A stretch of DNA of 64,000 nt, from positions 62,001 to 126,000 of the IMG/VR virus record IMGVR_UViG_3300032116_000013. The stretch is one strand, 5' to 3'. Shown here piece by piece: positions 12,187 to 44,111 of the stretch. Source of the stretch: a virus. Both the position numbers and the translations under genes were made by a program. Below the pieces are notes generated by a model, which worked only from the letters and a program-made list of their open reading frames with translations, had not been told where the DNA came from and ran no database searches. The first letter of the stretch is position 1. Every line of letters begins with the position of its first letter.

Positions 12187-12261
12187 GCCTTCATAGCACA
12201 ACGGTAGTGCAACTGATTTGTAATCAGTAGGTTGGGAGTTCAAATCTCTCTGAAGGCACCA
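12187..12261 (+). tRNA. tRNA-Thr (TGT)
   Basis: Acceptor GCCTTCA/TGAAGGC, anticodon loop TTTGTAA, CCA encoded. The ACCA end is also part of an 11-bp inverted repeat with 12345-12355. Confidence 0.95.
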
Positions 12262-12355
12262 TATTGAAGCGCATTAGTATCTGGCTTGGAGAATGCCTAG
12301 AATTAAAAGAGAGTGGCTCCTTATTAAGACTCTGGCTAGTGTGTTTCAATATGGT
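12258..12355 (+). ncRNA. Structured spacer S1
   Basis: ACCATATTGAA (12258-12268) pairs perfectly over 11 bp with TTCAATATGGT (12345-12355). Inside lie CTAG/CTAG and AGAGT/ACTCT stems. The 5' arm includes the ACCA tail of tRNA-Thr. Not a tRNA; class unknown. Confidence 0.45.
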
Positions 12356-12442
12356 TATCCTGACTGCTACCAGAGGTTCGTAGTAGCGGAGACTGTCACC
12401 CCGAAGCATAGTGTGACGCTGGATTAGTAACCAGCATTTTTT
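12356..12442 (+). ncRNA. Structured spacer S2 with terminator-like hairpin
   Basis: Hairpins GCTAC/GTAG, GTCAC/GTGAC and GCTGG-ATTAGTA-CCAGC followed by six T (12437-12442). The last looks like an intrinsic terminator inside the array, perhaps an attenuator, because tRNA genes continue 3 bases later. Confidence 0.45.
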
Positions 12443-12444
12443 GC

Positions 12445-12519
12445 GGACCCATCGTCTAACGGTTAGGACACATCCCTTTCACGGATGGAATAGGGATTCG
12501 AATTCCCTTGGGTTCACCA
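12445..12519 (+). tRNA. tRNA-Glu (TTC)
   Basis: Acceptor GGACCCA/TGGGTTC, anticodon loop CTTTCAC, T-loop TTCGAAT, CCA encoded. Confidence 0.95.
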
Positions 12520-12525
12520 GATTTT

Positions 12526-12611
12526 GCGTAGTTGTGTGAGTGGTTAAAACAGACAGACTGTAAATCTGTTGCCTTCGGGCTACGGTGGTTCGAATCCATC
12601 ACTACGCACCA
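12526..12611 (+). tRNA. tRNA-Tyr (GTA)
   Basis: Acceptor GCGTAGT/ACTACGC, anticodon loop CTGTAAA, long variable arm (class II), CCA encoded. Confidence 0.95.
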
Positions 12612-12628
12612 ATTTTTGTTATGATTTT

Positions 12629-12702
12629 GGGACTGAAACATTAAAGTGATGTAACGGACTTTTAATCCGTAAAAGAGGGAGCGTTACCCTCCAGTCCTAC
12701 CA
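12629..12702 (+). tRNA. tRNA-Lys (TTT)
   Basis: Acceptor GGGACTG/CAGTCCT (first pair G-T), anticodon loop CTTTTAA, CCA encoded. D-loop lacks a clear GG pair. Confidence 0.9.
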
Positions 12703-12709
12703 TACGTTC

Positions 12710-12785
12710 GGGTCTATCGTATAACGGTGATTATATCTGGCTCTTAACCAGTTTGATGCAGGTTCGAATCCTGCTAGACCCACCA
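12710..12785 (+). tRNA. tRNA-Lys (CTT)
   Basis: Acceptor GGGTCTA/TAGACCC, anticodon loop CTCTTAA, T-loop TTCGAAT, CCA encoded. Confidence 0.93.
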
Positions 12786-12789
12786 ATTT

Positions 12790-12863
12790 ATCTCGATGGT
12801 GTAATGGTAGCATACGAGTCTCCAAAACTCTTGGTTGCGGTTCGAGTCCGTATCGGGATACCA
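12790..12863 (+). tRNA. tRNA-Trp (CCA)
   Basis: Acceptor ATCTCGA/TCGGGAT, anticodon loop CTCCAAA, CCA encoded. The hammerhead ribozyme begins 2 bases after its CCA end. Confidence 0.93.
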
Positions 12864-12865
12864 TT

Positions 12866-12914
12866 CTGTCTCTGATGAGTCCGTAGGGACGAAACGCTGT
12901 GAAGCGTCAGACAG
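12866..12914 (+). ncRNA. Type I hammerhead ribozyme
   Basis: All conserved parts are in place. Stem I is CTGTCT (12866-12871) with AGACAG (12909-12914). Core CTGATGA lies at 12872-12878. Stem II is GTCC/GGAC with a GTAG loop (12879-12890). Core GAA lies at 12891-12893. Stem III is ACGCT/AGCGT with a GTGA loop (12894-12907). The expected self-cleavage falls after C12908, as the GTC triplet requires. The open helix is stem I, so it is type I. It would cut the array transcript 45 nt after the tRNA-Trp CCA. Confidence 0.9.
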
Positions 12915-13286
12915 CAGCGCGACCTTGTGGTGTAGCGTGATGCAAAAAACACGTGGGGTAAAAAGTCCATCATTAAGTTGGGAAAATCCACCTCTGTTTA
13001 GGTGCTGAGATGTATCCGATAGAGCCTGTGCATGGGCTTGTGTAGGCATCCAAAGCAAAACCACACTTTTGAATTCAGATGCATAGGTTCCTCGCGACCT
13101 TAAAAGCGAGCGCGTAGCATGATAACGAACTCTCATGCAGGAGCGGTGGTTACTTACACCGCACGTATTTTAAAAAATTCGCGCACCCGAGAAAAAGTAA
13201 CCAATCTTCACTCGAGCCGATCGCAGGAATACTTGACCCATCCTTCACGCCAACCAATACTGCGTGTAAACAACGGTCTCTTTTTT
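12915..13286 (+). ncRNA. Structured 370-nt spacer S3 after the ribozyme
   Basis: No supported ORF. Short perfect hairpins follow one another: CACCT/AGGTG (12989/13000), CTCGC/GCGAG (13091/13106), GCATG/CATGC (13117/13134) and GCGGTG/CACCGC (13143/13157). It ends in a seven-T run just before tRNA-Asn. After ribozyme cleavage its RNA would carry a 5'-OH end. Class unknown. Confidence 0.4.
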
Positions 13287-13361
13287 TGGCGTGTAGATCA
13301 GCGGTAGATCAAGTGACTGTTAATCACTCTGTCGTAGGTTCGATCCCTACCACGCCAGCCA
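13287..13361 (+). tRNA. tRNA-Asn (GTT)
   Basis: Acceptor TGGCGTG/CACGCCA, anticodon loop CTGTTAA, discriminator G, CCA encoded. Confidence 0.95.
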
Positions 13362-13547
13362 ACTTGGTGACATGCAAGAGCAGAATAATCTGCCTAGTAC
13401 CGTGTTCATCCGAATGTGTGATGGCTTGTCTGTTTGGGTAACACATTCGATATGAGGTGGAACAGAATAGATCATGCTGTGTGGGGGTATGATTGAGAAT
13501 AATTTAGTAGTGGGGATTCCCGCGAACGATAGCCCACACCATATTTT
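13362..13547 (+). ncRNA. Structured spacer S4
   Basis: CGAATGTGT (13411) pairs with ACACATTCG (13441) over 9 bp, flanked by TGTTC/GAACA. A further GTGTGGG (13479)/CCCACAC (13533) stem ends beside a T-run before tRNA-Gln. No ORF. Class unknown. Confidence 0.4.
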
Positions 13548-13621
13548 TGAGGGATAGATTAATGGCAGATCATCTGGCTTTGAACCAGAGAGTCGTGGTT
13601 CGAGTCCACGTCCCTCAGCCA
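13548..13621 (+). tRNA. tRNA-Gln (TTG)
   Basis: Acceptor TGAGGGA/TCCCTCA, anticodon loop CTTTGAA, discriminator G, CCA encoded. Confidence 0.95.
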
Positions 13622-13633
13622 AAAACTAAAAAT

Positions 13634-13717
13634 GCGAGAGTGGCGGAACGGTATACGCGCTAGTCTTAGGAACTAGTACCGAAAGGTTTAAGAGTTCGAG
13701 TCTCTTCTCTCGCACCA
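13634..13717 (+). tRNA. tRNA-Leu (TAG)
   Basis: Acceptor GCGAGAG/CTCTCGC, anticodon loop CTTAGGA, long variable arm, CCA encoded. Confidence 0.95.
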
Positions 13718-13734
13718 TTTTTGGAAATTATTTC

Positions 13735-13808
13735 GGGGATGTAGTTAAATGGGATAACTTCTGGTTTGCATCCAGAAATTGAGAGTTCGATTCTCTCCGT
13801 CTCCACCA
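13735..13808 (+). tRNA. tRNA-Ala (TGC)
   Basis: Acceptor GGGGATG/CGTCTCC, anticodon loop TTTGCAT, CCA encoded. The third acceptor pair is G-T, so it keeps a wobble near the alanine identity region. Confidence 0.93.
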
Positions 13809-13813
13809 TTTTT

Positions 13814-13918
13814 GTTATTCGTAAGCCATGGGTGATCGCAAAGCCCGAGTAACTGCGCCAAAAGAAAACTTCAGTTCTAGACACCTGAAGGTGAGACGCA
13901 GCAGATAGTGCGAATGAC
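13814..13918 (+). ncRNA. Structured spacer S5
   Basis: GTTATTCG (13814-13821) pairs with CGAATGAC (13911-13918). Inside lie CTGCG/CGCAG (13853/13897) and CTTCAG/CTGAAG (13869/13885), giving a compact multi-helix RNA followed by six T. No ORF; class unknown. Confidence 0.45.
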
Positions 13919-13928
13919 AATCTTTTTT

Positions 13929-14058
13929 GTTCACGTGTGTATGGTAACCCATATGTGATTAGCAGAAAAACCAAGCATATGCTAATGTACCTGATGTCCA
14001 TAGCAGACTTATGTCGAATAAGTCCAGCGCACAACTTGGAAATTGTGTGACGGTGAAC
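13929..14058 (+). ncRNA. Structured spacer S6
   Basis: GTTCAC (13929) and GTGAAC (14053-14058) enclose four hairpins: TATGG/CCATA, TTAGCA/TGCTAA, GACTTAT/ATAAGTC (14006/14018) and CACAA/TTGTG (14030/14043). The outcome is a closed multibranch RNA of 130 nt. No ORF; class unknown. Confidence 0.45.
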
Positions 14059-14066
14059 AGCCTAAT

Positions 14067-14161
14067 TTGCGTCTAGTGTAATGGTAGCACAGGAAGTCCG
14101 AGACATCGCAAGATGGAGTAGGCATCAAAATGCCCAGACGTGGTTCGATTCCACGACGCAA
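14067..14161 (+). ncRNA. tRNA-like RNA without an anticodon arm
   Basis: Acceptor TTGCGTC/GACGCAA is perfect. The D-arm region (TAGTGTAATGGTAGCAC) and T-arm (CGTGG-TTCGATT-CCACG) are canonical. The anticodon arm is replaced by about 45 nt with two small hairpins, CATC-GCAA-GATG and GGCAT-CAAA-ATGCC. No 7-base anticodon loop is seen, and the 3' end reads TCTA rather than CCA. It is either a decayed tRNA or a tRNA mimic. Confidence 0.6.
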
Positions 14162-14167
14162 TCTAAT

Positions 14168-14414
14168 ATGCCCGAAGCCTCTGCAGCAATGTCGATCCAC
14201 TCTGTGTGGATCGCTGTACGCTTCGGCTATCTGACGTTCCGACTCATAATCGGATAGTGTGCGTCCGCACGATGAGAAGCGAGATCATGACTCGCAGGAC
14301 CTTACTCTTGGGTAGAGAAGAGCGTTGGCAATACGAAAATCTCCCTGTGGTGTGAAGCGGGTGGAAGGTGTAGAATTACACTACAATTACCGCCAGCAGG
14401 GGGAAGCAACTAAT
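14168..14414 (+). ncRNA. Structured spacer S7
   Basis: No ORF. Stems include GCC(C)GAAGC/GCTTCGGC around GATCCAC/GTGGATC (14194/14206), and CTCCCTG/CAGGGGG (14341/14397). Two arms look like anticodon arms with CAT in 7-base loops: TCCGA-CTCATAA-TCGGA (14238-14254) and GCGAG-ATCATGA-CTCGC (14279-14295). No matching D- and T-arms were found around them. Confidence 0.4.
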
Positions 14415-14418
14415 TTTT

Positions 14419-14507
14419 GGAAGTGTGGGTGAGTGGTTGTAAACCAACAGTCTTGAAAACTGTCTGTCCGCAAGGGCACGTAGGTTCGAATCCTACCACT
14501 TCCGCCA
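14419..14507 (+). tRNA. tRNA-Ser (TGA)
   Basis: Acceptor GGAAGTG/CACTTCC, anticodon loop CTTGAAA, long variable arm, discriminator G, CCA encoded. Confidence 0.95.
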
Positions 14508-14512
14508 AATTT

Positions 14513-14587
14513 GCGCGATTAACTCAGCGGTAGAGTAGCGCCTTTACACGGCGAATGTCGGGAGTTCAATCCTCTCATCGCGCACCA
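14513..14587 (+). tRNA. tRNA-Val (TAC)
   Basis: Acceptor GCGCGAT/ATCGCGC, anticodon loop TTTACAC, CCA encoded. The outermost anticodon-stem pair (27-43) is a G-A mismatch. Confidence 0.93.
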
Positions 14588-14591
14588 TCTT

Positions 14592-14665
14592 GCCCCTTTA
14601 GTTCAATAGTAGAACACTAAACTGATAATTTAGAAACGGTGGAGCGTAACCACCAAGGGGCACCA
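14592..14665 (+). tRNA. tRNA-Ile (GAT)
   Basis: Acceptor GCCCCTT/AAGGGGC, anticodon loop CTGATAA, CCA encoded. Confidence 0.95.
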
Positions 14666-14670
14666 ATTAC

Positions 14671-14746
14671 GGTGGCTGTCGTCAAGTGGTTAAGACCATG
14701 GGTTGTGATCCCATTATCGTGGGTTCGATCCCCACCAGTCACCCCA
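14671..14746 (+). tRNA. tRNA-His (GTG)
   Basis: Eight-pair acceptor with the histidine-specific extra G(-1):C73, anticodon loop TTGTGAT, CCA encoded. Confidence 0.95.
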
Positions 14747-14750
14747 TCTT

Positions 14751-14826
14751 GCGCTCGTAGTCTAGAGGATGAGGCATCTGCCTTCTAAGCAGATTAACGC
14801 AGGTTCGAGTCCTGCCGAGCGCGCCA
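14751..14826 (+). tRNA. tRNA-Arg (TCT)
   Basis: Acceptor GCGCTCG/CGAGCGC, anticodon loop CTTCTAA, discriminator G, CCA encoded. Confidence 0.95.
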
Positions 14827-14827
14827 A

Positions 14828-14901
14828 GCCTCTTTAGTTCAATAGCAGAACACATTCTTGGTAAGGATGAAACGATGGAGCGTAACCATCATGAGGCACC
14901 A
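14828..14901 (+). tRNA. tRNA-Thr (GGT)
   Basis: Acceptor GCCTCTT/ATGAGGC with one T-T mismatch, anticodon loop TTGGTAA, CCA encoded. Starts 1 base after tRNA-Arg. Confidence 0.92.
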
Positions 14902-14906
14902 ATTTC

Positions 14907-14986
14907 GGCTCTTGGGACTGCATGGTGTGGTCGCTCGCCTGTCACGCGAGATATTCAGATGGGATCGTTACCCATAAGAGTCGCCA
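14907..14986 (+). tRNA. tRNA-Asp (GTC)
   Basis: Acceptor GGCTCTT/AAGAGTC, anticodon loop CTGTCAC, discriminator G, CCA encoded. The D-arm is slightly long. Confidence 0.93.
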
Positions 14987-14991
14987 TATTT

Positions 14992-15079
14992 GGAAGGTTG
15001 GCAGAGCGGTGATTGCAAGAGTTTGCTAAACTCTCGTCCAGCAATGGGCGCATAGGTTCGAATCCTATACCTTCCGCCA
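14992..15079 (+). tRNA. tRNA-Ser (GCT)
   Basis: Acceptor GGAAGGT/ACCTTCC, anticodon loop TTGCTAA, long variable arm, discriminator G, CCA encoded. Confidence 0.95.
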
Positions 15080-15084
15080 TTTTT

Positions 15085-15160
15085 GGCAGTGTAGCATAGC
15101 GGCTAATGCGGCACCTTCATACGGTGAAGATCGTGTGTTCGAATCACACCACTGCTACCA
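15085..15160 (+). tRNA. tRNA-Met or Ile2 (CAT)
   Basis: Acceptor GGCAGTG/CACTGCT, anticodon loop TTCATAC, CCA encoded. Whether it reads AUG or, after C34 lysidine modification, AUA is not decided by the sequence. Confidence 0.92.
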
Positions 15161-15164
15161 ATTT

Positions 15165-15239
15165 GCTGCTTTAACTGAGATAGATTAGTGCGAGTCTGAA
15201 GAACTCGATAGGTTGGTGCGATACCAACAGGCAGCACCA
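15165..15239 (+). tRNA. tRNA-Phe (GAA)
   Basis: Acceptor GCTGCTT/AGGCAGC, anticodon loop CTGAAGA, CCA encoded. The D-loop (GAGATAGATT) lacks the usual GG. Confidence 0.92.
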
Positions 15240-15323
15240 ATCGCGACGACCCACTATCGTTAACAGTGGCGCTGCACCCAGAAGCGAGAGAAGAACCATG
15301 GTGGATCGACTGGGATTTGTTTT
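15240..15323 (+). ncRNA. Structured spacer S8
   Basis: 84 nt without an ORF, with a CCACT/AGTGG hairpin (15251/15265) and a longer CCCA/TGGG closure. Class unknown. Confidence 0.3.
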
Positions 15324-15398
15324 GCCCCTATAGTGAAATGGAGATCACGCGATGCTACGAACGTCGTATTCCAGGTTCGAGTCCTGGTAGGGGTGCCA
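15324..15398 (+). tRNA. tRNA-Arg (ACG)
   Basis: Acceptor GCCCCTA/TAGGGGT, anticodon loop CTACGAA, discriminator G, CCA encoded. A34 would need deamination to inosine by the host TadA enzyme. Confidence 0.95.
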
Positions 15399-15411
15399 AC
15401 TAAATATATGC

Positions 15412-15723
15412 ATGAACATGAATTTACAAAAAACACTACAAACATTTGCTGCGATTGCTGGAGCAATTTCCATCATCATCGTCGCATATGAATGGGTTGC
15501 CAGTAAACAATATGTTCAGCAAGCGACTGATCCAATTTCAAAAGATGTCAAACAAATTCTAGCGATTGGCATTGCGGATCAGATCAGCACACTTCACCGT
15601 TATAATTGCAACAATCCAGATGATGATCAGTTTGTGAGTCTAATGCGTGAAAAGAAATTGAAATTTGCAGAACTTACAGGGCGCGAATATATGGAAGTGC
15701 CTTGTGATAAGTTATCGAATTAA
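15412..15723 (+). CDS. Membrane-anchored small protein (103 aa)
   Basis: Lies between tRNA genes. One hydrophobic helix near the N-terminus (residues about 10-28, TFAAIAGAISIIIVAYEWV) is followed by a soluble tail of 75 residues with two cysteines. An alternative ATG is at 15418; neither has a good ribosome site. The topology suggests an inner-membrane anchor with a periplasmic domain. Not recognised. Confidence 0.65.
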   Translation: MNMNLQKTLQTFAAIAGAISIIIVAYEWVASKQYVQQATDPISKDVKQILAIGIADQISTLHRYNCNNPDDDQFVSLMREKKLKFAELTGREYMEVPCDKLSN

Positions 15724-15725
15724 TT

Positions 15726-15800
15726 GTTGCGGTGGCTGAGAAGTGAGGCGACAGTCTGCAAAACTGTTCTATGCAGGTGCGAGTCCTGTCCGCAACTCCA
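15726..15800 (+). tRNA. tRNA-Cys (GCA)
   Basis: Acceptor GTTGCGG/CCGCAAC, anticodon loop CTGCAAA, discriminator T as usual for Cys, CCA encoded. Confidence 0.95.
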
Positions 15801-15813
15801 TTTAGAGATCGTT

Positions 15814-16041
15814 ATGAAAAAATACATTCATGTGAATCAACATGTGATTCGATCAAACAAAAAGAACAACGAAAACAATCCTGTCTTGACTATCAAGGAA
15901 GGCAGGAAGAATACCTATTGTCATCGAGTCAAGATTCATGGACCCAGTGAGGTAGTTTATTCTGGCAATGAAAAATTATTGCTGCCTTGTGGCGCGAGAG
16001 TTGCCGTAGTCACTGAAAGTGAGATAGAAATTATAGAATGA
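15814..16041 (+). CDS. Conserved small phage protein (75 aa)
   Basis: Starts MKKYIHVNQHVIRSN and contains NPVLTIKEGRKNTYCHRV and GPSEVVYS, the pattern of a beta-rich protein widespread in phages and sometimes linked to translation-region loci. No role is known. ATG 15814 was chosen because upstream in-frame codons fall inside tRNA-Cys. It lies inside the tRNA array. Confidence 0.8.
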   Translation: MKKYIHVNQHVIRSNKKNNENNPVLTIKEGRKNTYCHRVKIHGPSEVVYSGNEKLLLPCGARVAVVTESEIEIIE

Positions 16042-16042
16042 C

Positions 16043-16133
16043 GCTCCTGTAGTGTAATGTAGCACGACGGGACTTATAATCCCGAACTCCAGATTAGAGG
16101 TTAGTCTTGGTTCAAGTCCAAGCAGGAGCACCA
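16043..16133 (+). tRNA. Class II tRNA with anticodon TAT (atypical)
   Basis: Acceptor GCTCCTG/CAGGAGC, anticodon stem CGGGA/TCCCG, loop CTTATAA, CCA encoded. It has a long variable arm (CTC/GAG stem) as in Leu, Ser or Tyr tRNAs, yet the anticodon TAT would read the Ile codon AUA. The D-loop is one base short of a normal GG. The charged amino acid is uncertain. Confidence 0.8.
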
Positions 16134-16139
16134 AGTTTT

Positions 16140-16216
16140 GCGCCTATAGCATAATTGGTTAATGCAGCAAACTCATAATTTGTTGATTCTAGGTTCAAGT
16201 CCTAGTGGGCGCACCA
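16140..16216 (+). tRNA. tRNA-Met or Ile2 (CAT)
   Basis: Acceptor GCGCCTA/TGGGCGC, anticodon loop CTCATAA, CCA encoded. Second of three CAT tRNAs in the window. Confidence 0.92.
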
Positions 16217-16217
16217 G

Positions 16218-16246
16218 TTGACTTTTGAGACTAGATATAGTAAGAT
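16218..16246 (+). promoter_or_regulatory. Internal sigma70-like promoter in the array
   Basis: -35 TTGACT (16218-16223), 17-bp spacer, -10 TAAGAT (16241-16246). It begins 1 base after a tRNA and would start transcripts at the tRNA-Pro gene. Confidence 0.65.
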
Positions 16247-16254
16247 ATAACAAT

Positions 16255-16331
16255 CGGACAGTAGCACAGCCTGGTAGTGCATCTGCTTTGGGAGCAGAGG
16301 GTCGGAGGTTCGAATCCTCTCTGTCCGACCA
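16255..16331 (+). tRNA. tRNA-Pro (TGG)
   Basis: Acceptor CGGACAG/CTGTCCG, anticodon loop TTTGGGA, CCA encoded. Confidence 0.95.
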
Positions 16332-16336
16332 TTTTT

Positions 16337-16420
16337 GCGATTGTGGTGGAATCGGTATACACAACAGACTTAAAATCTGTCGGCAATGCCATGTCGGTTC
16401 GAGTCCGACCAGTCGCACCA
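16337..16420 (+). tRNA. tRNA-Leu (TAA)
   Basis: Acceptor GCGATTG/CAGTCGC, anticodon loop CTTAAAA, long variable arm, CCA encoded. Confidence 0.95.
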
Positions 16421-16424
16421 GAAT

Positions 16425-16498
16425 GCGGGATTAGTTTAATGGTAAAACTAAAGTTTTCCAAACTTTCGTCATCAGTTCGATTCTGATATCCCGCTCCA
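16425..16498 (+). tRNA. tRNA-Gly (TCC)
   Basis: Acceptor GCGGGAT/ATCCCGC, anticodon loop TTTCCAA, discriminator T, CCA encoded. Confidence 0.95.
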
Positions 16499-16513
16499 CT
16501 TTAGAGTAAAGTT

Positions 16514-16999
16514 ATGTATGTATTTGACGGAGTCCTAGATCCAGATTTATTGCAAAAATTCAAAATAAAAATTGAAGACCATTTTATGCAAATGGTTTCT
16601 AAAAATTACAATAAATCAGATTTTTATCCTACAAGAAACATAATGATGAATTCTGATGATTTGGTTGTAAAATTAACTAAAGATTTTTTAGAATCAAAAT
16701 TAAAAATTAAATTAAACTGTTATCAATTTGAACTTCAGACTTGGCCAGTAGAAATTTTTTCATCACTGCATAAACATGATACTGGAATAAGATCGCGTGG
16801 AGATTATAATAGCATACTCTATCTAAATGATAATTTTGATGGTGGCGAATTTTATACTGAAAATGGAATTACTATAAAACCGAAAACTAATAGATTAATT
16901 TTATTTGATGGTAAAAATATAAACCATGGCGTTAAAACAGTAAGAAAAAATCACAGATACACAATGATTTTTTGGTGGGAAAACACACAATTCTATTAA
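16514..16999 (+). CDS. 2-oxoglutarate/Fe(II) oxygenase (prolyl hydroxylase-like)
   Basis: 161 aa. A double-stranded beta-helix core is visible: SSLHKHDTGIRSRGDYNSILYLND, FDGGEF, KPKTNRLILF, NHGVKTV and HRYTMIFWW. His86/His88-Asp89, His138 and Arg148 are the candidate iron and 2-oxoglutarate ligands. Such enzymes are frequent in aquatic T4-like phages, and their substrates are mostly unknown. The gene is AT-rich compared with the small early genes and sits with a methyltransferase inside the tRNA array. Confidence 0.8.
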   Translation: MYVFDGVLDPDLLQKFKIKIEDHFMQMVSKNYNKSDFYPTRNIMMNSDDLVVKLTKDFLESKLKIKLNCYQFELQTWPVEIFSSLHKHDTGIRSRGDYNSILYLNDNFDGGEFYTENGITIKPKTNRLILFDGKNINHGVKTVRKNHRYTMIFWWENTQFY

Positions 17000-17011
17000 A
17001 GGAATATCCAT

Positions 17012-17719
17012 ATGCATCCAAGTGCACTTTTAACAGGTGAAGATTTCTTTCTGACATATGCTGCAGAACTAAATGAACCAACTGTAGTTGAAATTGGTTC
17101 TCAAAATATCAACGGTTCACTTAGAGATGTTGCTACAAATAATGTCAAGAAGTATGTTGGTCTTGATTTTGCTGAAGGCGTCGGAGTCGATATAGTCTTG
17201 ACTGATGCATACAAATATCCTCTAGAAGATAATTCATTTGATATTCTTGTAACTTCCTCTTGCCTAGAACATTCTGAAATGTTTTGGCTGTCTTTTCTAG
17301 AAGGAATGAGAATTTTAAAGGACGACGGCATCATGTACATCAATGCTCCATCAGCATGGATGATGTATCATAGGTTTCCAGTTGACTGTTGGCGATTTTG
17401 GCCAGATGCTGGAAAGGCACTAGAAACTTGGGCTAGATATAATAAAATGAATTCAATGGTTCTAGAGTCTTATGTTTGCCCCCCAGGACCTGGAGAATAT
17501 GTAGCAGATTTTGTTTGTGTTATGCTGAAAAACGCAGATTATGTGAACAAATATCCAAATAGAATGATAGACTCTTTGGTTGAATCTCATCAATTTTTTA
17601 ATGGATTCAGATTCCCTAAGAATGAAAAATTCCCGCATGGATGGGATAAACCTACTGCAGAGCGTAAGCAGGATATTCTTTTGACTAATAATAATGGAAT
17701 AGGATTCAATATCAGATAA
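17012..17719 (+). CDS. SAM-dependent methyltransferase (class I)
   Basis: 235 aa. Motif I is VVEIGSQNINGS near residue 25, the acidic residue follows in KYVGLDFAEGVGVDIVLTD, and a Methyltransf_11-type SFDILVTSSCLEH block lies near residue 80. Preceded by AAGGAATATCC. Its companion is the 2OG oxygenase 12 bases upstream. Similar phage enzymes often modify sugars or small molecules; the substrate is unknown. Confidence 0.8.
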   Translation: MHPSALLTGEDFFLTYAAELNEPTVVEIGSQNINGSLRDVATNNVKKYVGLDFAEGVGVDIVLTDAYKYPLEDNSFDILVTSSCLEHSEMFWLSFLEGMRILKDDGIMYINAPSAWMMYHRFPVDCWRFWPDAGKALETWARYNKMNSMVLESYVCPPGPGEYVADFVCVMLKNADYVNKYPNRMIDSLVESHQFFNGFRFPKNEKFPHGWDKPTAERKQDILLTNNNGIGFNIR

Positions 17720-17726
17720 AATTTTC

Positions 17727-17801
17727 GCGGAAGTAGCACAGGGGTAGTGCTTTTGCTTGCCAAGCAAAAGGTCGTGGGTTCAAATCCCATCTTCCGCTCC
17801 A
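17727..17801 (+). tRNA. tRNA-Gly (GCC)
   Basis: Acceptor GCGGAAG/CTTCCGC, anticodon loop TTGCCAA, discriminator T, CCA encoded. Last tRNA of the array, followed by a terminator. Confidence 0.95.
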
Positions 17802-28268: not shown

Positions 28269-28343
28269 TGCGGGTTAGTTCAGTAGCAGAACGGTGGACT
28301 CATAATCCACAGGTCGGGCGTGCAATTCGCCCACCCGCTACCA
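28269..28343 (+). tRNA. tRNA-Met (CAT), U1-U72 mismatch
   Basis: Acceptor TGCGGGT/ACCCGCT leaves the first pair as T-T, anticodon loop CTCATAA, CCA encoded. An unpaired 1-72 position is the hallmark of bacterial initiator tRNAs, but the 11-24 pair (T-A) and the GTGGA anticodon stem are elongator-like. Lies alone, 10 kb from the main array. Confidence 0.9.
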
Positions 28344-37115: not shown

Positions 37116-37274
37116 ATGTCACAAACAAATCAAGCACAATGTCGCTGCGGTCGCAGTCCAACAGGCACCTGTAATGGAATGCACTCAATGACGAATGAAC
37201 AATATCAGAAGTATCTTCAAGAACAAATGAAGAGTTTGAATGAGCAAACAAAGCCACAGTTTTTGGTTGATTGA
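37116..37274 (+). CDS. CDGSH-like Cys/His small protein (52 aa)
   Basis: AAGGAGAAC precedes the ATG. CRCGRSPTGTCNGMH gives a CxC-x(7)-C-x(3)-H pattern like the CDGSH-type iron-sulfur or zinc motif of small phage proteins, followed by a charged helix. Function unknown. Confidence 0.7.
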   Translation: MSQTNQAQCRCGRSPTGTCNGMHSMTNEQYQKYLQEQMKSLNEQTKPQFLVD

Positions 37275-37291
37275 TAAAGGAGTTTTATTAT

Positions 37292-37861
37292 ATGGATTAT
37301 TTTGATATGGATGATGTAGCGTTACCGACAGTTCTCCCAGCAGTTGTGTTCAAGACACGAGTGCGCGATGAGTCTGTTGGCGGACCGAACCCATACCGAT
37401 GGCAGGATGTATCATCGTATGACTATTTCGGTGGCAAGCGTGTTGTAATTTTTTCACTTCCTGGTGCATTCACACCGACTTGTTCGACAATGCAACTTCC
37501 TGGCTTTGAAGAAAAGTATGACGTGTTTCGTATGTTTGGAATTGATGAAATCTACTGCGTGTCAGTGAACGATGCATTTGTGATGAATGCTTGGGCGAAG
37601 GCTCAGAACATTCAGAACGTAAAGGTCATTCCTGACGGTAGTGAGAAATTCACACGTGCGATGCGCATGCTTGTTGATAAGGACAACCTTGGGTTTGGAT
37701 TCCGTTCATGGCGTTATGCGGTTGTTGCCAACAACGGCACCATTGAGAAGTGGTTCGTTGAGCCAGGCAAGGAGCATAACTGTGCGACTGATCCGTATGG
37801 TGAGACTTCGCCTGAGAATATTTTGACTTATTTGAGGTCAGAACATTTGAAGACACTTTGA
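37292..37861 (+). CDS. Peroxiredoxin (Prx5-type)
   Basis: 189 aa. VIFSLPGAFTPTCST holds the PxxxTxxC active site with peroxidatic Cys64. The Prx5/AhpE-like pattern continues with LPGFEEKYD, YCVSVNDAFVMNAWA and KDNLGFGFRSWRYAVV. It reduces peroxides with thiol donors, and a glutaredoxin at 28360 could be its partner. AAAGG-AG lies 8 bases before ATG 37292, preferred over a TTG at 37271. The stop TGA is followed by ATAAATAA, a late-promoter-like string before the tmRNA. Confidence 0.9.
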   Translation: MDYFDMDDVALPTVLPAVVFKTRVRDESVGGPNPYRWQDVSSYDYFGGKRVVIFSLPGAFTPTCSTMQLPGFEEKYDVFRMFGIDEIYCVSVNDAFVMNAWAKAQNIQNVKVIPDGSEKFTRAMRMLVDKDNLGFGFRSWRYAVVANNGTIEKWFVEPGKEHNCATDPYGETSPENILTYLRSEHLKTL

Positions 37862-37884
37862 ATAAATAAGAACTAATGGTTGTA

Positions 37885-38196
37885 AACTGACGACTAAAGG
37901 TGTTTCGGACGTGGGTTCGACTCCCACCTTCTCCACCAAAAGCATACTCGCCATCCCTCTACGATGGTCTCGCAAAGTCTTCCTAGGAGATGAGATAGTT
38001 GCAAGTAGTATGCTCCTGATGGGGAAGAAATGGCTTCGACGGGGCAAGTAATAAACCGACAGCAACCAGTGAGGCGACTGACTTAATCAGCGCAAAACTA
38101 GTAAACGCAAACGATGATGTTTACGACATGGCTCTTGCTGCTTAATAGCAGTATAAGAATACCAGAGTTGACCACTTGGTAACAGAAAGGTCAGGA
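37885..38196 (+). ncRNA. ssrA: Circularly permuted two-piece tmRNA
   Basis: Acceptor piece first: GTTTCGGACG, then T-arm GTGGG-TTCGACT-CCCAC, CTTCTCC, A and CCA (ends 37938). Coding piece second: GGGGAAG (38021-38027), ATGGCTTCGACGGGG, the resume codon GCA at 38107, and a tag ORF giving ANDDVYDMALAA with TAA TAG stops (38107-38148). GGGGAAG pairs with CTTCTCC over 7 bp, joining the two pieces as one acceptor stem. The 82-nt intervening loop is closed by AGCATACT/AGTATGCT. tmRNA tags stalled ribosomes and targets the products for proteolysis. The piece ends are estimates. Confidence 0.93.
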
Positions 38197-38223
38197 GGGT
38201 GGGGTAACACCCACCCTTTTTTT
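38197..38223 (+). terminator. Terminator of the tmRNA
   Basis: GGGTGG-GGTAACA-CCACCC followed by seven T. Confidence 0.9.
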
Positions 38224-38236
38224 GGAGAATAAATTT

Positions 38237-38929
38237 ATGAAGATTAATTTTGCTATAGCGACAAATAAAAAATTTGAGAATTTAACCGTCCCAGTGATTT
38301 TGACTTCACTTATTAATAATGGCATTGAATCAGATTTAATCCATGTATTTTCTGCTGGCTATGAGCAGTATGAATACATTAGCACAAAATATTGTCATTA
38401 TCACAAACTAGATCATAACTCTTTCGAGTACAGTCCACTTATTACAATTGTTGAAAGACAATTAGAATCAGAATATTGGTTTCTTATACATGATACTTGC
38501 CAAGTAGGTCCTAGATTTAAATCTATTGTATATTCAATACCAGAAAGTAAACCTGAAAAACTTGCTCTAACTGTAACTCCATCTATGTCTATAGGATCGT
38601 ATAGATATGATTATTTGATGACTGATGAAGTTAAAAACAAACTTTTGGCTATAAAGAATACAGACTATTCTGAAAAATCTATGACTGACTGGAAATTCTG
38701 GGGAGTTGATGCAGAGGATTACATTCTGCATAAAACTGCCCCGCCAGCGCAGTACTATAGTCCAGAACTATTGCGACCGCATGGTCAAGACTTCGTAGTT
38801 GTAGACTATAATAATTGGTATGGAACTAACGTCACCAGAAGAACTGAATATTTCAGATCTATGGATCTTTATAAAAATAAATCTAACTGGGTCCTTAAAA
38901 AACCAGAAGAGTATATTCGCGATCTTTAA
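38237..38929 (+). CDS. Glycan-cluster protein, glycosyltransferase-like (230 aa)
   Basis: First of six AT-rich genes forming a sugar-type cluster. The fold looks like a GT-A transferase (FAIATNKKFENLTVPVILTSL and WFLIHDTCQVGP with a DxxxxGP end where a DXD would stand) but no clear DXD motif is seen. GGAGAAT precedes ATG 38237. Assigned by context. Confidence 0.55.
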   Translation: MKINFAIATNKKFENLTVPVILTSLINNGIESDLIHVFSAGYEQYEYISTKYCHYHKLDHNSFEYSPLITIVERQLESEYWFLIHDTCQVGPRFKSIVYSIPESKPEKLALTVTPSMSIGSYRYDYLMTDEVKNKLLAIKNTDYSEKSMTDWKFWGVDAEDYILHKTAPPAQYYSPELLRPHGQDFVVVDYNNWYGTNVTRRTEYFRSMDLYKNKSNWVLKKPEEYIRDL

Positions 38930-38931
38930 AA

Positions 38932-39891
38932 ATGAAAATTGCAATTATAGGCGGAGGTTGGATTGGTTGTCACCTAGCATCTAAATTGATGTCCAATCAC
39001 AGCGTAAAAATTTTTGAGCAAAAAGATAAACTGTTTACTCAGACTTCATATAACAATCAAAATAGATTACATCTAGGTTATCACTATCCTAGAAATTTTA
39101 AAACTAGACAGTTGTGTAAAGAAACATATGATAAGTTTCTGAGGGACTATGGGCAATTTACCAATCACATTGATAGAAATTATTATTGTGTTCCAGAAAA
39201 TTCTAACATAGACTTTGAGACGTATCTGCAAATTTTTGATCATGATGTTTACATTGTCAATAGTGGTTTGTTAAATATTGAAGGCGCCATAAACACAAAA
39301 GAAAGGCATATTGATTTTTATGCAATTCACCAGCATTTCAATAAAACCTTAAAAGACATATTCGTCCAAGAAAACATAGACAATTCTAGCGATTTGTCTA
39401 ACAGTTTTGATTTAGTTTTGAATTGTACCAATAATTTTTTGAGTCCATCTAAAAATAGTTATTATGAGTTGACTCTCACTTTGATATACGATAGAATAAA
39501 GTCGTCAACTTTTGATTCTATAACTTTAGTTGATGGAGACTTTTTCTCAATCTACCCTTATCAAAAAAACAAATATACCTTAACTGATGTAGAACATACA
39601 CCCTTAAAAGTTTTCAGTTCAATTGAAGAATTGCATTCGTTTGAATTTACAACAGAAATGTTAGACGAAAAGAAAAATCTAATGGAATCCAAGGTAAAAT
39701 ATTATTATCCAGAATTTAATAGTCATTTTAGATACCATGGATTTTTTCTATCAACTAAGTCTAAAACTGTTAATAGTTCAGCTAACAGATATCCTGTGAT
39801 TCAACAAAACGAAAATGTTATTTCGTGTTTTACTGGAAAAATACAAGGAATCTATCCTATAGAAAATTTTATAACTAGAATTATATCATGA
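38932..39891 (+). CDS. FAD-dependent oxidoreductase-like protein (319 aa)
   Basis: KIAIIGGGWIGCHLASKL (residues 2-19) is a GxGxxG dinucleotide-binding motif, followed by VKIFEQKDKL with the ribose-binding Glu. NNQNRLHLGYHYPRN near residue 45 fits D-amino-acid-oxidase-type flavoproteins (DAO fold). It lies within the sugar cluster, where such enzymes may oxidise sugar or amino compounds. Substrate unknown. End overlaps the next gene by 4 bases. Confidence 0.7.
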   Translation: MKIAIIGGGWIGCHLASKLMSNHSVKIFEQKDKLFTQTSYNNQNRLHLGYHYPRNFKTRQLCKETYDKFLRDYGQFTNHIDRNYYCVPENSNIDFETYLQIFDHDVYIVNSGLLNIEGAINTKERHIDFYAIHQHFNKTLKDIFVQENIDNSSDLSNSFDLVLNCTNNFLSPSKNSYYELTLTLIYDRIKSSTFDSITLVDGDFFSIYPYQKNKYTLTDVEHTPLKVFSSIEELHSFEFTTEMLDEKKNLMESKVKYYYPEFNSHFRYHGFFLSTKSKTVNSSANRYPVIQQNENVISCFTGKIQGIYPIENFITRIIS

Positions 39892-40940
39892 ACGAAGAAA
39901 CCTTAAAAAAAATATTTTTACAATATTTACGCAGAGAACCAGAAGAGAACGAATACGTTTATCATTTGAATAGAAATATTCGGGTGGAAGATTTTATTGA
40001 GGAAATAAAAAATTGTTCCGAGAGAACACTTCTTTTGGATAAACATAAACATGGAGACGGTCGTCCGTTTTCTATTGCTATTCTTTTATCTGGTCATGTC
40101 AGAAATTTAAATATAGTAAATGGTATTCTGCGCAAAATAGTAGAGGCGCATGACGTTGATATTTTTGTGTTTGCTTGGGATCAGATTGGGATGAAAGGAA
40201 CAGAAAAAGATGTCAGTAAGAATACTCAAAGAAAACTAATAGAACTTAAATTGCAAGAAATACCTAATTTGACTGCATACAAAATAGAGAACAATGCAGA
40301 TTTTGTTGAGAATAATTACAGCGAAAAAATTACATATTTTAATCATTCTTCCCCAGAAGTATTCATTAAATCTCAGTTGTATGCTATTCAACAGTCATAT
40401 AAACTGATGGAAGAACATGCTAAAAAAGAAAATAAACAATATGACCTAGTCATTAAGGCTAGAATGGATTTAAAGTTTTCTTCTTTTATAGTTGATTTAG
40501 AATTATTAGAAGATATAAAAAAGAAAATAATTTTTGTCCCAAACTCAGACATTTCGCACACTCACCCAGATCATGGAACTAGTTGCTGGGCTTGTGATAA
40601 AATGTATTACAAACATAAATTTAAATATCCGCACGTTTTTGACCACACTAATGTTGTATGTGATCTATTTGCTTATGGTAGCATGAGTTCTATGAAAGAA
40701 TATTGTTCTATGTTCGAGCACTACGATAGAATTAATCAAGAATATTCTGAAAAAAATCTAAAGATTTTAAAAGAAAACGATGATCTAAAAACTGTATTCA
40801 GAAATAATGTTTACATGGTGACCGATCACGTACAAGCATTATACTATGTAAACTGTTCATTCCCAGAAAGAATATTAACAACTTTACTCAAAGATTACAT
40901 GCTACCAGAATCTAGAAAAGTTCAAATGTACATGGAATAA
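39888..40940 (+). CDS. Glycosyltransferase-like protein (350 aa)
   Basis: An N-terminal segment of about 45 residues (FLQYLRREPEENEYVYHLN) resembles the DUF4214-type domain often found near glycosyltransferases. Then comes FSIAILLSGHVRNL with DVDIFVFAWDQ and YDLVIKARMDLKF, the pattern of capsule- and LPS-associated glycosyltransferase-like proteins. Acts probably on surface or nucleotide sugars. The start overlaps the previous stop. Specificity unknown. Confidence 0.65.
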   Translation: MNEETLKKIFLQYLRREPEENEYVYHLNRNIRVEDFIEEIKNCSERTLLLDKHKHGDGRPFSIAILLSGHVRNLNIVNGILRKIVEAHDVDIFVFAWDQIGMKGTEKDVSKNTQRKLIELKLQEIPNLTAYKIENNADFVENNYSEKITYFNHSSPEVFIKSQLYAIQQSYKLMEEHAKKENKQYDLVIKARMDLKFSSFIVDLELLEDIKKKIIFVPNSDISHTHPDHGTSCWACDKMYYKHKFKYPHVFDHTNVVCDLFAYGSMSSMKEYCSMFEHYDRINQEYSEKNLKILKENDDLKTVFRNNVYMVTDHVQALYYVNCSFPERILTTLLKDYMLPESRKVQMYME

Positions 40941-40941
40941 T

Positions 40942-41697
40942 ATGAAAATTTTAGTAGGAAACACTGGATTAATTGGAAAAACATTAGTCAATTCTATAGA
41001 CTTCGACTTATGTTTTAATAGTTCTAATATCCATGAGTTCGAATCAAAAGTTCAGAATAATTCAGAGATTTATCTATCCTGTTTACCTGCAACTAAATGG
41101 CTTATCAATCAAAATCTTCGAAAAGATATCGAGAATATTAATAAAATTATTCAAATAATCGCTACTAAAAACTATTCTAAGGTCACATTGTTTTCAACCA
41201 TAGACGTATACAATAGTTCTCCTCTTAGAGTAAATGAGGAATATAGCCCTAACATAAAAAAATTAAGTTATGGCGAAAATAGATACTTTTTTGAATTGTT
41301 AATTACTGAATTTATAAAAACCGACAGATTATGCATTTTTAGATTACCCGCATTATTTAATAGATTCATCAAAAAAAATATACTGTTCGATCTATTAAAT
41401 AATAACAATGTTGAACAAATAAATATCAACTCTGCATATCAATGGTACAACCTAAATAATCTACACAAAGATATTGACTTTTTTAGCAATGGGTATAATT
41501 ATCGTACTGTGTTCAATCTATTCCCAGAACCAGTCGAGACTGCAGAAATAATTAAATTATTTCCAGAGTATAGTAAATTTACTAACTCTAAAAGAGTTGA
41601 ATACGATTATACCACTGTGTTTAACACGTATCTTCATTCTAAAGAAGAATCATTAAATCAAATTAAGGATTTTATAAGTGAATCTCGCAGTAAGTAG
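40942..41697 (+). CDS. NAD(P)-dependent sugar epimerase-like protein (251 aa)
   Basis: KILVGNTGLIGKTL (residues 2-15) is a GxxGxxG Rossmann motif of extended short-chain dehydrogenases. Later blocks LFSTIDVYNSS (S..Y-type) and YGENRYFFE give the candidate catalytic Ser/Tyr-Lys region, although the lysine is replaced by Arg in the YxxxK position. It is shorter than typical epimerases. Sugar nucleotide modification is likely. Overlaps the next gene by 20 bases. Confidence 0.65.
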   Translation: MKILVGNTGLIGKTLVNSIDFDLCFNSSNIHEFESKVQNNSEIYLSCLPATKWLINQNLRKDIENINKIIQIIATKNYSKVTLFSTIDVYNSSPLRVNEEYSPNIKKLSYGENRYFFELLITEFIKTDRLCIFRLPALFNRFIKKNILFDLLNNNNVEQININSAYQWYNLNNLHKDIDFFSNGYNYRTVFNLFPEPVETAEIIKLFPEYSKFTNSKRVEYDYTTVFNTYLHSKEESLNQIKDFISESRSK

Positions 41698-42466
41698 TCT
41701 GGCGTGGGATCAATCTAACGAAAGGCAAATGTTTGATTTCTTTGAAAAATCAAATATATCCCAAGTAGAGATAGTATTTAATAAAATAAAACCATGGGAT
41801 AGTTTAACTGAAGAAGACGTTTTGAGGTATAGACAAAAATTAGACTATCATGGATTAAAGGCTATATCAGCGCAATCTATATTTTTTGGAACTAATATAG
41901 AATTAACTGATAAAGAACAAATAAAAAACCACTTTGACAAACTGATAAATTATTCTAAAATTATCGGATTAGATTATTTGGTTTTCGGTTCACCTAAAAT
42001 GAGAAAAGGCGCGTCAGAGGATGTCAGAGAAACTCTTAATGCAATAGATTCATTGTTGGATGGAACAAGAATAAAGTTACTCTTAGAACCTAATGCCAGA
42101 AATTATGGTGGCAATTATTGGTTCAATGTTAAAGAAATTGTACAATTTTTAGGCGACAAGTATTGCAATATTAGCACAATGCTTGACTTACACAATGTTT
42201 TATTAGAGAATAGAAACGAGCACGAAGATTTTATCGAATACATGGACAAAATTGATCATATCCATGTATCTGAAGTTAATTTAGGTTTACTAACCAATTT
42301 TGATAGACACGAGAAGTTTGCAGAGACTCTTAGAAAATTTCATTATCAAAAAACTATATCATATGAAGTTTTAAAGGCTGATGGAATGATTGAAAGTATC
42401 AATAATTTTTCAAGGATATATAAAAATGAGCAACCTAAATCTAGTAAACACTCTAAATCGCATTGA
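41678..42466 (+). CDS. Sugar phosphate isomerase/epimerase-like TIM barrel (262 aa)
   Basis: GTG start inside the preceding gene. LAVSSLAWD, VEIVFNK, GLDYLVFGSPKMRKG, LLLEPNARNYGG, MLDLHNVL and IDHIHVSEVN give the order of metal-binding Glu/Asp/His residues in the AP-endonuclease-2/xylose-isomerase family. A sugar isomerase fits the cluster. Its last 41 bases overlap the SleB-type gene. Confidence 0.75.
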   Translation: MNLAVSSLAWDQSNERQMFDFFEKSNISQVEIVFNKIKPWDSLTEEDVLRYRQKLDYHGLKAISAQSIFFGTNIELTDKEQIKNHFDKLINYSKIIGLDYLVFGSPKMRKGASEDVRETLNAIDSLLDGTRIKLLLEPNARNYGGNYWFNVKEIVQFLGDKYCNISTMLDLHNVLLENRNEHEDFIEYMDKIDHIHVSEVNLGLLTNFDRHEKFAETLRKFHYQKTISYEVLKADGMIESINNFSRIYKNEQPKSSKHSKSH

Positions 42467-43067: not shown

Positions 43068-44111
43068 ATGCGAATAGAATATGACGTGAAGTTGGATTAC
43101 AAAGATGTTTTGATTGTTCCTAAACGGTCAACTCTTTCTTCTCGAAGCCAAGTAAAGTTAGATAGAGCATTTGTATTTCGTAGCAGTAACAGTTGGTCAG
43201 GCGTACCAATTATTGCTGCTAATATGGATGGAGTCGGAACTCTTGAGATGGATCAGCAGTTCAGTGAACATAATTGTTTAGTTGCTGTCACTAAGCATTA
43301 CGACAGCGAAGTGTTGGGCGAGCACTTCAAGAAAAAGATGTCTAGCAGCATTTATTCTTTGGGCATTTCTGATACTGATTTGCAAAAGTTTCAGTTCGTT
43401 TATAGCGTTGCGCAGAATCCATACATGAGAGTTTGCGTTGACGTTGCCAATGGATACACGCAAAGTTTTGTTGATTTTATCAAACGATTTCGCGACAAGT
43501 ATCCGAATATTGTATTGATGGCTGGTAATGTTGTCACGCCAGAAATGACAGAAGAACTTATTCTTGCTGGTGTTGATATTGTGAAAGTCGGTATTGGTCC
43601 TGGTTCAGTTTGCACTACACGCAAGATGACAGGCATCGGCTACCCGCAGTTGAGTGCAGTTATAGAATGCGCTGACGCTGCTCATGGTCTCAAGGGTCAT
43701 ATTATAGCGGATGGAGGGTGTTCCGTTCCTGGAGACGTCGTGAAAGCATTTGCTGCGGGTGCCGATTTTGTGATGATCGGAGGTATGCTTGCTGGGCATA
43801 AAGAAGGATTGCCATCTGAATATAAAGATACTACTGAGGGCAAGTCACTAGTTGATTTCTATGGTATGAGTTCAAAGTCAGCGATGGATCTTCACAGTGG
43901 CGGAGTTGCCAATTATCGCGCCAGCGAAGGCAAACATGTAAAGATTCCATATCGTGGTGAGGTGAGCAGAACACTACAAGATATTCTTGGTGGTCTGCGT
44001 TCGGCATGTACTTATGTTGGAGCAAGTGAGTTGAAGGAATTGAGTAAGCGTGCAACATTTGTTCGCGTCACTCAGCAACTGAATAATTCCTTGAGTAATT
44101 ATGAGATCTAA
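43068..44111 (+). CDS. guaC: GMP reductase
   Basis: 347 aa. The IMPDH/GMPR barrel is complete: [45 protein letters not shown], and [21 protein letters not shown] with catalytic Cys182. [31 protein letters not shown] follows and is the GMPR version (no CBS domains, short). It converts GMP to IMP with NADPH and so recycles guanine nucleotides. A purine auxiliary gene fits nucleotide supply for replication. Six bases after the hydrolase gene. Confidence 0.93.

Follow-up and report, generated by a model that had tools for sequence, protein, structure and literature searches.

The window analysed here, a stretch of 64,000 nucleotides, is DNA of a T4-like (Kyanoviridae-like) phage and forms part of a linear phage record of 197,424 bases that may be incomplete. 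Its T4-like gene set comprises PhoH, a PDDEXK-type exonuclease, a gp59-like helicase loader, a gp32-like SSB, and T4-type baseplate proteins; for the baseplate wedge protein, the nearest named records among the matches listed come from cyanophages and from phage Melnitz (~29–38% identity). A permuted tmRNA gene (ssrA) lies on the forward strand at ~37878–38220, with the PDDEXK nuclease upstream and the gp59 helicase loader/SSB downstream, the same site as in Melnitz; it is the only locus in the whole virus record matched by the Rfam tmRNA_permuted model. Annotated phage records queried with the tmRNA, and with the 24 kb around it, returned no match.

Anatomy of the permuted tmRNA gene

ARAGORN called a permuted tmRNA at 37846–38236 with the tag ANDDVYDMALAA. 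A covariance-model check had been set beforehand, and the locus passed it with two models, each aligned over its full length: tmRNA_permuted (RF04321; 145.9 bits, E 8.8e-29, cut-off 47) and beta_tmRNA (RF01850; 129.9 bits, E 2.6e-39, cut-off 84; 37833–38220). These E-values exclude chance; the permuted tmRNA gene is confirmed as real and, judged by its sequence, looks intact.

The 3' (acceptor) piece, delimited by ARAGORN, the alignments to both Rfam models and the sequence itself, occupies 37878–37938 and includes one strand of the long helix, the T-arm (37911–37927), the acceptor strand CTTCTCC (37928–37934), and the discriminator A followed by CCA (37935–37938). An intervening segment of exactly 82 nt (37939–38020), seen as the gap between the pieces in the Rfam alignments, separates it from the 5' (tag) piece; by homology, this segment would be absent from the mature RNA. 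Its last four bases are TGAT, in a register common to related loci. The 5' piece (38021–38193), supported by the RF01850 alignment and an alignment of nine relatives, opens with the acceptor strand GGGGAAG (38021–38027) and carries a D-like region, a PK1 region, the tag frame and a 3' hairpin (38169–38193). The tag frame ANDDVYDMALAA at 38107–38145, found by ARAGORN and paralleled in relatives, is followed by the stops TAA TAG (frame to 38148) and possesses both the resume codon and a hydrophobic Ala-Ala end.

The two acceptor strands form a stem of 7 bp between the pieces that includes G3-U70, evident in both sequence and fold; G3-U70 is a mark for alanine charging. Within the intervening segment, AGCATACT (37941–37948) pairs with AGTATGCT (38007–38014), and the minimum free energy (MFE) fold of the window places this helix and the acceptor helix at the positions described. 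Downstream of the tag piece, a hairpin followed by a T run (~38194–38220) constitutes an intrinsic terminator, and the hairpin is present with changed sequence in the related loci L119, L010, L084, L046, L032, and L007. No good sigma-70 promoter was found immediately upstream of the tmRNA; we assume transcription from a promoter further upstream. We rejected a candidate 3'-end pseudoknot between UACCA (38160–38164) and UGGUA (38177–38181), since one of its strands is not conserved in L032, L007, and L087.

The preliminary description of this locus is borne out in its permuted order, on which sequence, ARAGORN and Rfam agree, in an acceptor stem of seven pairs that forms only between the pieces, in an 82-nt loop closed by an 8-bp repeat, in the tag frame with its stops, and in a terminator-like hairpin behind the gene. 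Its extent, given as 37885–38223, needs a small correction at the start, which lies a few bases further upstream, at ~37878.

The surroundings of the gene hold further features. A peroxiredoxin gene (37271–37861) lies upstream of the tmRNA, as in seven related loci, and an IMP dehydrogenase/GMP reductase-like gene (43068–44111) flanks the tmRNA region on the other side. Directly behind the terminator, positions 38224–42464 make up a ~4.2-kb cassette with a GC content of 29.9%, against ~38–42% around it, that encodes an FAD-oxidoreductase-like gene, a sugar-epimerase-like gene and three unknowns. The cassette is present in the window and in L101 and missing from the close relatives L119, L010, L084, L032, and L007, in which the gene starting near 42426 in the window follows at most ~60 bases after the tmRNA. 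Elsewhere in the window, ARAGORN and Rfam delineate a tRNA array (12187–17801 and 28269–28343) of ~29 genes, including ones called by Rfam only, that amounts to a near-complete decoding set.

Relatives, gene order and known permuted tmRNAs

We scanned IMG/VR for the permuted signature in three ranges of intervening-segment length, yielding at least 119 stretches at 60–90 nt, 69 at 30–59 nt and 89 at 91–120 nt. Counting the window's own, at least 277 loci bear the signature, nearly all of them IMG/VR contigs, with 195 distinct intervening segments. Among the matches listed, the 276 other loci received 258 permuted calls from ARAGORN, and 206 tags end in LAA. An Rfam scan of 15 loci placed all 15 above the cut-off for tmRNA_permuted and 14 above that for beta_tmRNA. 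The acceptor stem has 7/7 pairs in 194 of the 195 distinct sequences, four of those pairs being fixed by the search pattern itself. The direct relatives (L101, L119, L010, L084, L046, L032, L007, and L087) possess tmRNAs 72–99.8% identical to that of the window, or 72–96% with L101 set aside, and their tags differ slightly (ANDDVYEMALAA, ANDDYYEMALAA, ANDSNYDLPLAA). Even where the intervening segment has diverged, the tRNA-like domain and resume region are retained, as is an LAA-ending tag. Permuted phage tmRNAs at L031, L036, L039, L056, and L099 carry an unusual 22-residue tag, AKASKFEYMTVDFSLEAADMVA, that is not of the short AND...LAA kind.

The gene order around the tmRNA is likewise conserved. 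Among the matches listed, the PDDEXK nuclease lies upstream in 105 of the 110 loci with neighbour data, gp59 follows the gene in the same orientation in 114 of 115, and at least one of PhoH, PDDEXK, gp59 and SSB is among the neighbours in 162 of the 276 loci. Melnitz, a Methylophilales phage (MZ577097) that is also T4-like, has a permuted two-piece gene in the order PhoH, PDDEXK, ssrA, gp59, SSB. Conservation of this order in the relatives and in Melnitz makes ssrA an established resident of the phage lineage. At the level of sequence, these comparisons establish anatomy, family membership, conservation and gene order.

The preliminary description was right to see a permuted two-piece tmRNA in a phage, and its claim of novelty, that such a copy is little or not described, does not hold: the permuted ssrA of Melnitz was described in 2022 (PMC9004378), and such genes occur on many IMG/VR phage contigs. 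The Melnitz study counted 53 two-piece tmRNAs among 18,146 public phage genomes; marine or aquatic samples were the source of 50 (PMC9004378). Phage permuted tmRNA genes are common in aquatic phages, and the window's gene is a further, beta-type example of a kind known since 2022. The Melnitz copy resembles it in a tag ending in ALAA and in an intervening helix with TGAT between it and GGGG. It differs in its tag sequence, in an intervening segment of 142 nt rather than 82, in its placement with alphaproteobacteria by the authors, where the window's gene matches the beta model, and in the glutamine riboswitch that they report in the 3' domain (PMC9004378), whereas Rfam called none in the window. 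Cultured Stenotrophomonas phages carry permuted tmRNAs as well, annotated as tmRNA in some records. The genes of Stenotrophomonas Menderavirus phages (e.g. Marzo, MZ326868) share with the window's the permuted arrangement, the intervening helix and TGAT before GGGG; they differ in lying inside a tRNA cluster, in a tag ending in RIAA and in the phage genus.

Comparison with bacterial genes, which rests on two Cupriavidus plasmid copies, revealed higher beta_tmRNA scores (231.7 and 289.4 bits vs. 129.9 for the window) and intervening segments of 32 nt rather than 82. A scan of bacterial genomes for permuted genes with a 60–90 nt intervening segment found none, with a pattern that would miss both Cupriavidus copies too, given their 32-nt segments and other departures. 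The tag sequence, scanned in bacterial genomes (GTDB), likewise had no match.

A paired helix in the intervening segment

The helix formed by AGCATACT and AGTATGCT is maintained by compensatory changes in relatives, namely AACATACT/AGTATGTT in L084, AATACACT/AGTGTATT in L032, and AGCATTCT/AGAATGCT in L087. In L046, L032, L007, and L087 the intervening segment has been replaced relative to the window, and the helix pairing largely persists. Across the distinct segments, a covarying helix running from the first base after CCA to exactly four bases before the 5' GGGG is present in 180 of 195. In that register, at least 7 of 9 pairs form in 83–98% of segments in every length class, against ~2–3% in shuffles; other registers lie near background, except for a weaker signal two bases to either side. 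Pairing the 5' arm of one segment with the 3' arm of another lowered the mean from 8.17 to 5.52 of 9 pairs (1000 swaps, maximum 5.77). As these controls leave the relatedness between sequences in, the figures describe pairing and do not count independent events. The four bases before GGGG are TGAT in 144 of the 195 segments, and stand opposite ACCA as A-U, C·A, C-G, A-U, exactly so in the window's MFE fold.

On sequence grounds, the helix itself is well supported. It is found in Melnitz and Marzo and also in a Cupriavidus plasmid tmRNA (L283); a phage-specific helix was therefore rejected. The Rfam beta_tmRNA and tmRNA_permuted models, as shown in these alignments, leave the intervening segment unpaired. 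The helix probably shapes the precursor for processing. It is possible, if somewhat doubtful, that a processing element not yet described is common to permuted tmRNA precursors: a helix of 9–12 bp, extending from just after CCA to a point exactly four bases, mostly UGAU, short of the 5' end, that would hold CCA in a nearly continuous helix until it is cut, with phages keeping the helix and swapping the loop freely.

Proposed working and alternative explanations

We consider it very likely that the T4-like (Kyanoviridae-like) phage carries an intact permuted ssrA that is processed by the host, served by host AlaRS and SmpB, and used to tag for host proteases, and that it is likely kept for ribosome recycling. 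In studied permuted tmRNAs, the intervening segment is excised by tRNA-processing enzymes, leaving two RNAs that stay paired (PMC11915505, PMC3978253); by analogy with these, we infer that the phage RNA is processed, charged and active in tagging, and that it benefits the phage. A single transcript would fold with the 7-bp acceptor stem bridging the intervening segment, whereupon host RNase P would cleave before G38021 and host 3' processing would free the CCA at 37938. Host AlaRS would charge the RNA via G3-U70. No SmpB gene was found in the 197,424-base phage record, which is possibly incomplete, or in 36 records carrying a permuted tmRNA; from its absence in the phage record it follows that host SmpB would be required, bringing the phage tmRNA to stalled ribosomes, where it would add ANDDVYDMALAA for host proteases. 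By analogy, the likeliest benefit to the phage is that ribosomes stalled during infection, e.g. on mRNAs cut by nucleases or defences, would be recycled and kept in use. The authors of the Melnitz study proposed a further use, in which a phage could direct host proteins to degradation by tagging them (PMC9004378).

Alternatively, the locus might express a tmRNA-derived RNA that inhibits host trans-translation, or acts as its decoy, instead of working as a tmRNA. There is precedent in the tag-less tmRNA-like RNA of phage DS6A, which inhibits endogenous tmRNA in E. coli (PMC11915505), and the lack of an SmpB gene in the phage records searched also fits a decoy. A decoy would need no tag, however, and both the tag frame and the LAA end are kept across the relatives; moreover, every part needed for function is present. 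We regard this explanation as very unlikely.

It is highly improbable that the gene is a non-functional ssrA recently acquired from a host and left, for instance, by imprecise excision of an integrated element. Although mobile elements often integrate at ssrA (PMC11915505) and the 4.2-kb low-GC cassette sits just downstream, the syntenic relatives largely refute such an origin: many T4-like contigs, and Melnitz too, share the gene order. By beta-model score, the gene stands well apart from both bacterial beta genes compared, and the GTDB scan found no match to its tag. Misassembly of a host-genome fragment into a viral contig, a concern given that IMG/VR is metagenomic, is barely credible here: L101, from another sample, is 99.99% identical to the window over 7.7 kb through the tmRNA locus, L119 and L010 are ~95–96% identical across it, and phage genes lie on both sides of the tmRNA.

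With a working, host-served tmRNA as the preferred reading, the window adds a beta-type example to the two-piece tmRNAs of phages. The fixed helix in the intervening segment offers a concrete target for how permuted precursors get cut and could sharpen the Rfam models. The many relatives show ssrA to be settled at a single site across a broad T4-like lineage rather than picked up by chance, and the question of why phages keep a ribosome-rescue RNA therefore becomes testable.
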